A stretch of DNA of 14,559 nt from Streptomyces sp. NRRL F-5727 (lineage in GTDB: Bacteria > Actinomycetota > Actinomycetes > Streptomycetales > Streptomycetaceae): the NCBI RefSeq assembly GCF_000719555.1, contig NZ_JOGX01000102.1, positions 1 to 14,559 of the forward strand, in the 5' to 3' direction. Positions 3,102 through 5,834 of this stretch are shown here, in pieces. Position numbers and translations under genes: made by a program. The notes below the pieces were generated by a model. It searched no databases and was not told the origin of the DNA. It saw only the letters and a program-made list of their open reading frames with translations. How positions within the stretch are numbered: position 1 is the stretch's first letter; the number at the start of each line of letters is the position of its first letter.

Positions 3102-4280
3102 CTACAGGCGCTGGATGATCGTGCCGGTGGCGAGCGCGCCCCCCGCACACATCGTGACCAGCGCGAACTCCTTGTCGGACCGCTCCAGCTCGTGCAGCGC
3201 CGTGGCGATCAGCCGGGCGCCGGTCGCGCCGACCGGGTGGCCGAGGGCGATGGCGCCGCCGTTGACGTTGACCTTCTCCAGACCGTCGAGGTCCTTGTCG
3301 AACTCCTGCGCCCAGCTCAGCACCACCGAGGCGAACGCCTCGTTGATCTCGACCACGTCGATGTCCCGGAGCGACATGCCGGCCTTGCCGAGCACCGCGC
3401 GGGTCGCGTCGATGGGCCCGTCGAGGTGGTAGTGCGGGTCCGCGCCGACCAGCGCCTGGGCGACGATCCGGGCGCGGGGGCGCAGCTTCAGCGCCCGGGC
3501 CATGCGCTTGGAGGCCCACATCACGGCGGAGGCGCCGTCGGAGATCTGGGAGGAGTTCCCGGCGGTGTGGACGGCGGTGGGCATGACCGGCTTGAGCCGG
3601 GCGAGCCCCTCCATGCTGGTGTCGCGCAGCCCCTCGTCGCGGTCGACCAGCCGCCACATGCCCTGCCCCGCGTGCTGCTCCTCCTCGGTGGTCGGGACCT
3701 GGACGGCGAAGGTCTCGCGCTTGAACCGCTCCTCGGCCCAGGCGACGGCGGCCCGCTCCTGGGAGATGACGCCGAGGGAGTCGACCCGCTCGCGGGTCAG
3801 GCCGCGGCGGCGGGCGATCCGCTCGGCGGCCTCGAACTGGTTGGGCAGGTCCACGTTCCACTCGTCGGGGAAGGGCTTGCCGGGCCCGTGCTTGGAGCCG
3901 GAGCCGAGCGGCACGCGGGACATGGCCTCGACGCCGCAGGAGATGCCGACGTCGATGACGCCGGCCGTGATCATGTTGGCGACCATGTGGCTGGCCTGCT
4001 GGGAGGAGCCGCACTGGGCGTCGACGGTGGTGGCGGCGGTCTCGTAGGGCAGGCCCATGGTGAGCCAGGCGGTGCGGGCCGGGTTCATGGACTGCTCGCC
4101 GGCGTGCGTGACGGTGCCGCCGACGATCTGTTCGACGCAGTCGGCGGGGATGCCGGTGCGGCCGAGGAGTTCGCGGTAGGTCTCGCCCAGGAGGTAGGCG
4201 GGGTGGAGGTTGGCGAGCGCGCCTCCGCGCTTGCCGATGGGGGTGCGTACGGCTTCGACGATGACGGGTTCCGCGGCCAT
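3102..4280 (-). CDS. fadA5: Acetyl-CoA acetyltransferase, FadA5-like steroid thiolase
   Basis: A 392-residue thiolase expected to carry out thiolytic release of acetyl- or propionyl-CoA from a beta-ketoacyl-CoA; FadA5 of Mycobacterium tuberculosis does this for the cholesterol side chain. The start is the ATG at 4278-4280, preceded by AGGAGAGGA; the longer frame lacks a site. All thiolase catalytic elements are present: nucleophile Cys90 in [11 protein letters not shown], His348 in [16 protein letters not shown], and Cys378 in [10 protein letters not shown], plus NEAFA (313-317). Long stretches match FadA5 as I remember it: PVIVEA.R.PIGKR near the start, [41 protein letters not shown] and ALHELER. 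A divergent CYP125-like gene with a KstR-like site between them repeats the M. tuberculosis arrangement and strengthens a steroid role. A general medium- or branched-chain thiolase remains possible. Confidence 0.92.
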
Positions 4281-4339
4281 GAGCTGTCCTCTCCTCGACC
4301 GGGCGGGGTGTCCCGGCACCCGCCGGTCGGCGTCATGGG

Positions 4340-4363
4340 AGAACTAGTACGCGTTCTAGTTCT
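4340..4363. promoter_or_regulatory. KstR-like operator palindrome between fadA5 and cyp125
   Basis: A 24-nt palindrome with arms AGAACTAG and CTAGTTCT around TACGCGTT; a single mismatched pair breaks the symmetry. Its core TAGTACGCGTTCTA matches the remembered KstR consensus TnnAACnnGTTnnA except that the left half reads TAC for AAC. It lies 59 bp upstream of the thiolase start. KstR is a TetR-family repressor of cholesterol catabolism, relieved by steroid-CoA intermediates. The palindrome is seen directly; the regulator is inferred. Confidence 0.75.
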
Positions 4364-4505
4364 GGGGGAAGTCTGATGACTGCTACCGCCGGTACGCAAG
4401 GGTCCGGACGGCGGGAGTTCGGTGAAGGAGGACGCTTTCGGGCGCGACCGAGGGCTCGTCGGGGCGGTCCGGGAGGCGCGTGGGGGCGTATTCCGCCCGC
4501 GCCTC

Positions 4506-4534
4506 TTGCGACTTGTAGAACTCGTTACTAACTT
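4506..4534 (+). promoter_or_regulatory. Predicted promoter of the CYP125-like gene
   Basis: TTGCGA (4506-4511), 17-nt spacer, TAACTT (4529-4534): close to the HrdB-type TTGAC-17-TANNNT arrangement. The predicted start point is near 4541, giving a 40-nt leader with GGAG (4567-4570) before the ATG. Confidence 0.55.
4516..4529. promoter_or_regulatory. Second KstR-like half-matching site inside the P450 promoter
   Basis: TAGAACTCGTTACT fits TnnAACnnGTTnnA in all but the final base. It sits wholly within the spacer between the proposed -35 and -10 boxes, where a bound repressor would block RNA polymerase. Flanking symmetry is poor, so it would be a weaker site than the 4340-4363 palindrome. Confidence 0.45.
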
Positions 4535-4545
4535 TCCCGGCAACT

Positions 4546-4562
4546 TCTGATGGTCCATCAGA
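4546..4562. promoter_or_regulatory. 17-nt perfect palindrome in the P450 leader, unidentified operator
   Basis: TCTGATGGTCCATCAGA is a perfect inverted repeat around one central T. It lies a few bases after the predicted transcription start and 4 nt before the GGAG ribosome binding site. It is unrelated to the KstR-like sites, so it suggests a second regulator; it could also act as an RNA hairpin of 8 bp, but the 1-nt loop makes a DNA operator more likely. Confidence 0.6.
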
Positions 4563-4580
4563 TATTGGAGCGTGTTGCCG

Positions 4581-5834
4581 ATGACCTGCCCCCACCTCCC
4601 CGAAGGATTCGACGCCACCGACCCCGACCTGCTGCGCAGCCGGGTCCCGCTCCCCGAGTTCGCGGAGCTGCGCCGGACCGCCCCGGTCTGGTGGTGCCCC
4701 CAGCCGCGCGGCATCACCGGCTTCGACGACGAGGGCTACTGGGCCGTCACCCGCCACGCCGACGTCAAGTACGTCTCCACCCACCCCGAGCTGTTCTCCT
4801 CGAACGAGAACACCGCCGTGATCCGCTTCAACGAGCACATCGGACGCGAACAGATCGACGTCCAGAAGCTGATCATGCTCAACATGGACCCGCCGGAGCA
4901 CACCCGGGTCCGCCAGATCATCCAGCGCGGCTTCACCCCGCGCGCCATCCGCGGCCTGGAGACCGCGCTGCGCGACCGCGCCCGCGCGATAGCCCGGGAG
5001 GCGCGCGCCGCCGCCGCCGAAGACCCCGACAGCACCTTCGACTTCGTCACCCGTGTCGCCGTCGAACTCCCCCTCCAGGCCATCGCCGAACTCATCGGCG
5101 TCCCCCAGGAGGACCGCGCCCGGATCTTCGACTGGTCCAACAAGATGGTGGCGTACGACGATCCCGAGTACGCCATCACCGAGGAGGTCGGCGTCGAGGC
5201 CGCCATGGAGATCATCGGCTACGCGATGAACATGGCCGCCGCCCGCAAGGAGTGCCCCGCCCAGGACATCGTGTCGCAGCTCGTCGCCGCCGAGGGCCAG
5301 GGCAACCTCTCCTCCGACGAGTTCGGCTTCTTCGTCCTGCTGCTCGCCGTCGCCGGCAACGAGACCACCCGCAACGCGATCAGCCACGGCATGCACGCCT
5401 TCCTCACCCACCCCGACCAGTGGGAGCTCTACAAGCGCGAGCGCCCCGCCGGCACGGCCGAGGAGATCGTCCGCTGGGCCACCCCCGTCGTCTCCTTCCA
5501 GCGCACCGCCACCCAGGACACCGAACTCGGCGGCCAGAAGATCAGTCGGGGCGACCGGGTCGGCCTCTTCTACTCCTCCGCCAACCGCGACCCCGAGGTC
5601 TTCGAGAACCCGGACGCCTTCGACATCACCCGCGACCCCAACCCGCACCTCGGCTTCGGCGGCGGCGGACCCCACTTCTGCCTCGGCAAGTCCCTCGCCG
5701 TGAAGGAGATCGAGCTGATCTTCGACGCGCTCGCCGACACCCTGCCCGACCTCACCCTCGCCGGCGAACCGCGCCGGCTCCGGGCCGCCTGGCTCAACGG
5801 CGTCAAGGAACTCCGGGTCCGCGCCACCCCCTGA
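4581..5834 (+). CDS. cyp125: Cytochrome P450, CYP125-like (steroid C26/C27 monooxygenase)
   Basis: A 417-residue soluble P450. CYP125 enzymes oxidise the terminal side-chain carbon of cholesterol or cholest-4-en-3-one, the first step of side-chain degradation, using ferredoxin and a reductase; neither partner is in the window. Motifs: C-helix HTRVR (His107, Arg111), I-helix AVAGNETTRNA (258-263 AGNETT), ExxR at Glu295-Arg298, and heme loop FGGGGPHFCLG with the heme-ligand Cys367. Family features match CYP125 as I remember it: NMDPPEHTR, TPVVSFQRTA, RDPNPHLGFGGGG and RLRAAWLNGVK near the end. GTG 4572 and TTG 4575 are in-frame alternatives; ATG 4581 is chosen because GGAG (4567-4570) abuts GTG 4572, although its 10-nt spacing to the ATG is long. 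The divergent FadA5-like thiolase and the shared operators support a steroid role over a biosynthetic one. Confidence 0.92.
   Translation: MTCPHLPEGFDATDPDLLRSRVPLPEFAELRRTAPVWWCPQPRGITGFDDEGYWAVTRHADVKYVSTHPELFSSNENTAVIRFNEHIGREQIDVQKLIMLNMDPPEHTRVRQIIQRGFTPRAIRGLETALRDRARAIAREARAAAAEDPDSTFDFVTRVAVELPLQAIAELIGVPQEDRARIFDWSNKMVAYDDPEYAITEEVGVEAAMEIIGYAMNMAAARKECPAQDIVSQLVAAEGQGNLSSDEFGFFVLLLAVAGNETTRNAISHGMHAFLTHPDQWELYKRERPAGTAEEIVRWATPVVSFQRTATQDTELGGQKISRGDRVGLFYSSANRDPEVFENPDAFDITRDPNPHLGFGGGGPHFCLGKSLAVKEIELIFDALADTLPDLTLAGEPRRLRAAWLNGVKELRVRATP

Follow-up and report, generated by a model that had tools for sequence, protein, structure and literature searches.

A divergent fadA5/cyp125-type gene pair in Streptomyces as a probable part of a dispersed KstR-type regulon for sterol side-chain β-oxidation without canonical KshA

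What is a divergent pair of genes for a FadA5-like thiolase and a CYP125-like cytochrome P450 doing in a Streptomyces? The pair lies in the stretch of DNA analysed here, hereafter the window, which is the whole of the 14.6-kb contig C102 (NZ_JOGX01000102.1; 14,559 nucleotides) of Streptomyces sp. NRRL F-5727, whose genome amounts to 7.95 Mb in 187 contigs. The initial annotation of this DNA took the pair for an isolated two-gene sterol side-chain module with a shared KstR-like operator, as in Mycobacterium tuberculosis. From comparisons of sequences, we consider it probable that the pair instead belongs to a regulon for sterol side-chain β-oxidation, dispersed over the genome, that is controlled by a KstR-type repressor and operates without the canonical KshA.

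Both enzymes were identified as proposed in the initial annotation. The thiolase scored 682.3 bits in the curated NCBIfam model of the steroid 3-ketoacyl-CoA (coenzyme A) thiolases (NF005889, cut-off 515), and its best match in the PDB was FadA5 with 498 bits, the next thiolase reaching 253. Its QCGS, GHPVG, and CAGGA stretches, which we take to be the catalytic Cys, His, and Cys motifs, align with FadA5. Translation more likely starts at ATG 4280 than at GTG 4319, because 75 of 79 relatives have a recognisable ATG at the matching position and the FadA5 alignment begins only at residue 17 of the long form. The twelve top PDB sequences for the P450 scored 503 to 483 bits and were named CYP125 (eight), "steroid C26-monooxygenase" (three), or "P450 heme-thiolate protein" (one); CYP124 followed at 321 bits and CYP142 at 184 bits or less, and by these gaps in PDB score the protein is classed as CYP125-type. 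The best P450 paralogue of the genome (contig C50, 40% identity) was set aside, as its scanned neighbours had no sterol link.

The surroundings of the pair were compared in two sets of loci. The named-locus set comprised the best 80 of 572 relatives for the P450, of which 79 were titled Streptomyces and one "Actinobacteria bacterium OV450", in keeping with the Streptomyces-like origin that had been read from the DNA. The intergenic region was testable in 79 of them (78 titled Streptomyces), since in locus L259 the contig ends 133 bases before the P450. The second set was an alignment of 30 loci, namely, 29 relatives and the window's own. The thiolase gene diverges from the P450 gene in 79 of the 80 named loci, L259 being the exception, and in all 30 aligned loci.

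Between the two genes, the 30-locus alignment shows conserved islands within otherwise variable DNA (Table 1). The 24-nucleotide palindrome singled out in the initial annotation, here O1, equals its own reverse complement at 22 of 24 positions, and TAGTACGCGTTCTA within it (4345-4358) is one change from TAGAACnnGTTCTA, which served as the reference for KstR-like sites with a usual limit of two mismatches. The O1 24-mer was found, on either strand, between the genes in 79/79 named loci, with 0, 1, 2, 3, and 4 mismatches in 6, 46, 15, 11, and 1 of them. In 74 of the 79 the best intergenic site lay within two mismatches of TAGAACnnGTTCTA (73 at O1, one at O2), a limit reached by 5 of 1580 single-base shuffles; the remaining five loci keep the O1 palindrome with a degraded left arm. 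The observation of a divergent pair with a KstR-like palindrome between the genes is thus borne out, and both features are conserved.

Two further elements, O2 and P3, had been overlooked. Both promoters of the region are consensus predictions. The pattern of the fadA5 promoter, TTGCGN-16..19-NAGACT, is kept in 75 of the 79 testable loci, and that of the cyp125 promoter, TTGnnn-17-TAnnnT with AACnnGTTA in its spacer, in 76. This spacer holds O2, whose exact form TAGAACnnGTTACT was present in 67 of the 79 loci and not in 12. In at least two of the 30 aligned loci, L058 and L060, the central heptamers have the reverse-complement form, which is what an element read from both sides would be expected to show. 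P3 fits the pattern CTGAYGnnnCRTCAG in 79/79 loci and may be the operator of a further, candidate regulator.

A plausible partner for the KstR-like sites is encoded on contig C83, where the only protein of the genome that matches PF17925 (TetR_C_20) was found (92-93 bits, cut-off 26.5). Against the PDB it scored 148 bits with KstR, 145 with the TetR protein 3bjb, and 49 with the next match, and the two align almost without difference over the helix-turn-helix stretch of KstR. The promoter of its own gene carries a KstR-like site in 30/30 loci, including that of the present genome, with two mismatches in 25 and one in five. In locus L018 (7955-10143), kstR diverges from a gene for a family-4 glycosyltransferase with a KstR-like site between the two; this glycosyltransferase is a possible extra KstR target, and this might be why some congeners have kstR but no cyp125.

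KstR-like sites also stand before genes on other contigs (Table 1). Upstream of the hydratase operon the site was perfect in 22 of 30 loci and had one mismatch in seven and two in one; upstream of the C51 dehydrogenase it was one mismatch off in 14 loci and two off in 16. The FadE34-like protein shares 46% identity, in an alignment of 734 positions, with the product of the open reading frame (ORF) that diverges from kstR in the more distant genome G090. There, TAGAACGTGTTCTA lies in the region between the two divergent genes; this is the kstR-fadE34 arrangement of mycobacteria, and it served as a positive control. Judged by their PDB matches, the C51 and C3 dehydrogenases resemble the paired subunits of a heteromeric enzyme from mycobacteria: 4x28, listed only as an acyl-CoA dehydrogenase, is presumably ChsE4-ChsE5, and we assume Tcur3483 and Tcur3481 to be related ChsE subunits.

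The pair had looked isolated because the window is a whole contig, with the neighbours cut off. In the one-contig relative G015, the hydratase, fadE34, kstR, and cyp125 sites follow each other in this order within 45 kb, so that kstR and two more KstR-marked operons accompany the pair, and the orthologue of the C51 dehydrogenase lies about 1.9 Mb from cyp125. Among the same-contig pairs entered, 44 of 48 have kstR no more than 50 kb from cyp125 (not so in G012, G074, G090, and G117), and 44 of 47 have the hydratase no more than 100 kb away (not so in G012, G074, and G090); G012 is the only congener among these exceptions. The reading as an isolated two-gene module was therefore abandoned. Given the further KstR-marked loci and an igr-like cassette found elsewhere in the genome, most of the sterol side-chain pathway appears to be dispersed over several loci.

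The genes of these loci also tend to occur together. Among 72 congeners, at the E-value limits used, cyp125 was present in 53, kstR in 67, the hydratase in 59, and the C51 dehydrogenase in 53 (G008 with a partial match). The p values that follow ignore shared ancestry, and the counts are for both genes, only cyp125, only the other, and neither. Cyp125 and the C51 dehydrogenase agreed in 70 of the 72 genomes (52/1/1/18, p = 8.6e-15), cyp125 and the hydratase gave 52/1/7/12 (p = 3.8e-8), and the association of cyp125 with kstR was weak (52/1/15/4, p = 0.016).

What seems to be missing is the canonical way into the sterol nucleus. No match to PF19298 (KshA_C) was found in the organism's own genome, which is 99.99% complete. 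In a scan of 120 relatives that included more distant genomes, PF19298 exceeded 250 bits in three of the 72 congeners, each of which has cyp125 (G012, G023, and G070), as well as in G090 and G117, more distant genomes of the same class that served as positive controls. Fifteen other congeners had matches of at most 97 bits, which were taken as other Rieske proteins. Thus, KshA at more than 250 bits is lacking in 50 of the 53 cyp125-bearing congeners. In G070 (C1:77006-87886) no more than 10 kb separates the KshA match from second copies of the hydratase and of a ChsE-type dehydrogenase, as though this congener had acquired a separate, complete steroid cluster besides the core module. As to KstD, five proteins of the genome exceed 100 bits with PF00890; a scan of two of these identified one as an L-aspartate oxidase and the other as a PRK12834 FAD-binding dehydrogenase. 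A double-glyoxalase ORF on contig C57, the only glyoxalase-fold ORF checked, was considered as HsaC and rejected, as it matches Rv0577 and had no ring-cleaving dioxygenase match.

The P3 palindrome is shared by cyp125 and a different set of genes. In the igr operon of M. tuberculosis, ChsE-type α and β subunits, ChsH2, ChsH1, and Ltp2 are encoded together, and the same content is found in the igr-like cassette on contig C3; unlike the mycobacterial operon, the cassette stands apart from cyp125, and upstream of it there is P3 and no KstR-like site. Its α subunit is 57% identical to the C51 protein, and its ChsH1 was read by eye in another frame, in L273 only. Second α copies (52-58% identity, E ≤ 1e-120) were found in 23 of the 72 congeners, 22 of which have cyp125 (G008 does not), and matches to α, ChsH2, β, and Ltp2 were all present in 20/20 examined of these 23. 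The element CTGACGGACAGTCAG, one mismatch from the P3 pattern, lies 44-107 bp upstream of the α gene of the cassette in 21/21 loci including that of the present genome. Allowing one mismatch to CTGAYGGnnCRTCAG, the genome holds 114 and 106 places on the two strands, versus 24 and 19 for the reversed pattern. By the ORF caller, 17 of 22 exact P3 places examined are between ORFs and five are inside one. Their neighbours encode luciferase-like monooxygenases, amidohydrolases, a thiolase/dehydrogenase pair, a short-chain dehydrogenase/reductase (SDR), an acyl-CoA ligase, a metallo-β-lactamase-fold protein, and a flavin reductase, and several others have no informative family match. On contig C57, a second Ltp2 gene and its DUF35 partner diverge from a FadD3-family ligase gene (815 bits, cut-off 657) across P3-like sites, and in G015 there is a P3 site near the hydratase promoter (exact) and near the fadE34 promoter (one mismatch). 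The palindrome marks a candidate regulon whose members would be the igr-like cassette and genes for acyl-CoA enzymes, luciferase-like monooxygenases, and amidohydrolases.

The regulator that would act at P3 was sought among TetR-type proteins. The TetR gene beside the C57 cluster (L150:4827-5474) was rejected, as the stretch upstream of it has no P3 site. A crude TetR-like signature applied to the ORFs near P3 sites returned kstR and one match unlike a TetR. SRTF1 of N. simplex (Nocardioides) was weighed as a possible relative of this regulator, but the text examined prints no palindrome of SRTF1 to set beside P3. Among the open-licence papers listed, none evidently describes the P3 palindrome.

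Table 1. Positions of the gene pair, of its predicted control elements, and of the related loci elsewhere in the genome (plain coordinates refer to the window).
Feature	Location	Strand	Remarks
fadA5-type steroid 3-ketoacyl-CoA thiolase	3102..4280	-	392 aa from likely ATG 4280; ORF to GTG 4319 (3102-4319)
O1, KstR-like palindrome	4340..4363		just downstream of predicted fadA5 promoter; AGAACTAGTACGCGTTCTAGTTCT
Predicted fadA5 promoter	4370..4399	-	-35 TTGCGT 4399-4394, 18 bp, -10 CAGACT 4375-4370
Predicted cyp125 promoter	4506..4534	+	-35 TTGCGA 4506-4511, 17 bp, -10 TAACTT 4529-4534
O2, second KstR-like site	4516..4530		inside 17-bp spacer of predicted cyp125 promoter; TAGAACTCGTTACTA
P3, palindrome	4547..4561		between predicted -10 and start of cyp125; CTGATGGTCCATCAG
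cyp125-type cytochrome P450	4572..5834	+	420 aa; likely start in-frame ATG 4581, 417 aa
Hydratase - alcohol dehydrogenase - SDR operon	contig C81		intergenic KstR-like site upstream
726-aa fused acyl-CoA dehydrogenase (FadE34-like), then SCP2-type thiolase	end of contig C81		KstR-like site upstream
C51 acyl-CoA dehydrogenase	contig C51		KstR-like site upstream; PDB 4x28_A 464 bits, Tcur3483 442
C3 acyl-CoA dehydrogenase	contig C3		KstR-like site upstream; Tcur3481 (6wy8_A) 174 bits, 4x28_D 162
igr-like cassette	L273:9517-14359, contig C3		ChsE-type α, ChsH2 with DUF35 part, β, ChsH1, Ltp2
Second Ltp2 and ChsH2-type DUF35 protein	L150:11167-14397, contig C57		Ltp2: 6ok1, 330 bits

On the other side of cyp125, a gene for a DUF2330 protein (5917-7023, plus strand) follows directly 3' of it, and also adjoins cyp125 in G015. 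Next to it are an ORF with a serpin domain (7028-8653, minus strand) and, overlapping this, an ORF with an antibiotic-biosynthesis-monooxygenase domain (7559-8524, plus strand).

The model that we infer for binding, inducer, substrate, end product, and the regulator at P3 is as follows. The KstR-type TetR repressor encoded on C83 would occupy O1 and O2 and so block both promoters, and it would be released by a side-chain-oxidised sterol, either the acid or its CoA ester. CYP125 would oxidise the end of the side chain, which would then go through turns of β-oxidation with the dehydrogenases, hydratase, and SDR from the other KstR-marked loci and with the FadA5 thiolase. Where the igr-like cassette is present, ChsE, ChsH, and Ltp2 would take off the last C3 unit. 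The nucleus would not be opened via the canonical KshA route, and might be exported as a C19 or C22 steroid or handled otherwise. A second regulator, acting at P3, would couple cyp125 to the igr-like cassette.

Several observations weigh against a KstR-type side-chain regulon. The repressor scored 202 bits in the NCBIfam model of KstR (NF033703) and did not reach its cut-off of 280, the next family scoring 51; for this reason we call it KstR-type, and the KstR homologue that the initial annotation expected in the genome was found as a single TetR gene which stays below the curated threshold. The left half-site of O1 deviates from the consensus, O2 has three mismatches to TAGAACnnGTTCTA, and the C57, C47, and igr-like stretches, including the FadD3/Ltp2 loci, yielded no KstR-like site within two mismatches. 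The gene kstR is not divergent from fadE34 as it is in mycobacteria, the fadE34-like gene being about 20 kb off in G015. Eight of the 72 congeners have kstR without cyp125, the hydratase, or the C51 dehydrogenase, so KstR may have other targets. In the genome-wide search for the palindrome, suggested as a check on the initial annotation, KstR-like sites were found before other sterol-type genes, as described above, and by count there was no excess, with 68 places within two mismatches of TAGAACnnGTTCTA versus 153 for the reversed pattern (positions complete only for sites with at most one mismatch). The case for the motif rests, therefore, on its position and conservation. Two one-mismatch sites, C2:229810 and C78:28369, were discarded since they are inside long ORFs.

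Could the sites belong to a different TetR-type regulator, with the KstR homologue unrelated to the pair? The score below the equivalog cut-off and the weak co-occurrence of kstR and cyp125 would be in line with this. We nevertheless hold it to be extremely unlikely, as the same motif lies in the kstR promoter in 30/30 loci, the only PF17925 protein of the genome almost matches KstR over its helix-turn-helix stretch, and kstR lies close to cyp125 in nearly all of the same-contig pairs entered. A more substantial doubt concerns the substrate. The same regulon might serve another isoprenoid or branched compound, such as a triterpenoid, a hopanoid, a steroidal saponin, or a branched lipid, with activity on sterols as a side reaction. 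Such a role would agree with the lack of KshA in nearly all cyp125-bearing congeners, hence of sterol mineralisation by the known route, with the eight genomes that retain kstR without the enzymes, and with the activity on cholesterol of one Streptomyces CYP125, which is confined to in vitro work. The P450, the thiolase, the C51 and C3 dehydrogenases, and Ltp2 all score best with sterol side-chain enzymes or their homologues (we take the substrates of some of these PDB entries as presumed), which makes another substrate unlikely in our view.

The opposite departure would be a complete, non-canonical sterol catabolism, in which the P3-marked genes (luciferase-like monooxygenases, amidohydrolases, a FadD3-type ligase, and the second Ltp2) degrade the nucleus in place of KshA. 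The presence of P3 in all 79 cyp125 promoters, before the igr-like cassette in 21/21 loci, and near such genes speaks for it. However, no P3-marked gene could be assigned a ring-cleaving function, the double-glyoxalase ORF that was tested is Rv0577-like, and several exact P3 sites adjoin genes without an informative family match, so that we regard this as very unlikely. A KstR-type regulon that trims the sterol side chain is the reading we retain.

How does such a regulon compare with those already described? In M. tuberculosis, the KstR motif between Rv3545c and Rv3546 was bound in a gel shift (PMC1995591), which supports the mycobacterial parallel drawn at the outset. Like the Mycobacterium KstR regulon (PMC1995591), the present one has a KstR-type repressor, operators resembling TAGAACnnGTTCTA, a divergent fadA5/cyp125 pair with a site in between, a fadE34 target, and an autoregulatory site. 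It differs from that regulon in its scattered targets, in the separation of kstR from fadE34, in a repressor that scores under the KstR cut-off, in the absence of KshA, and in the P3 palindrome at cyp125 and the igr-like cassette. KstR-type control has also been predicted for Nocardioides simplex and Saccharopolyspora hirsuta, which do not belong to the mycolic-acid bacteria, and in S. hirsuta cyp125 and fadA5 are likewise head to head; these organisms have clustered kshA and ring-degradation genes, and P3 is not described in the text examined (PMC7807495, PMC9782250).

For Streptomyces, a P450 survey found CYP125 highly populated and negligible in secondary-metabolite clusters (PMC6408508). 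CYP125A13 of Streptomyces peucetius, a Streptomyces CYP125 like the one in the window, hydroxylates cholesterol at C-27 in vitro, and sterol catabolism was suggested; the main text contains none of the words "thiolase", "KstR", and "upstream", and in it no neighbourhood, regulator, or pathway genes are given (PMC9728343). A 2012 comparison that included two Streptomyces traced KstR back to the ancestor that Mycobacterium and Rhodococcus share (PMC3388012), and a 2016 survey found a steroid catabolism pathway in two of 57 Streptomyces genomes and none in the other 55 (PMC4810484). We found no KstR regulon of Streptomyces described in the open-licence papers examined; S. coelicolor SCO2319 was named as a possible KstR orthologue with 32% identity and no synteny (Kendall et al. 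2007, PMC1995591).

Our results extend the 2016 survey, in that most of the 72 congeners combine a KstR-type gene with its operator and several orthologous targets, all with conserved footprints, and KshA is missing in nearly all. They would also offer a candidate pathway for a P450 family that is known in Streptomyces without an assigned pathway in the literature examined. The genomes that keep kstR and lack the enzymes, 8 of 72, could explain why the system was overlooked; to our knowledge S. coelicolor lacks CYP125, and it may be one of them. Tentatively, and with less confidence than for the pair itself, we suggest that most of the genus has a side-chain-only sterol regulon with two repressors, one KstR-type and one undescribed at P3, by which acetyl- and propionyl-CoA would be gained from sterols and the nucleus released, modified, or degraded without KshA. 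If this is true, an abundant soil genus would trim sterols, with no mineralisation through the known route, and androstane- or pregnane-like steroids could be released or propionyl-CoA fed to polyketides.

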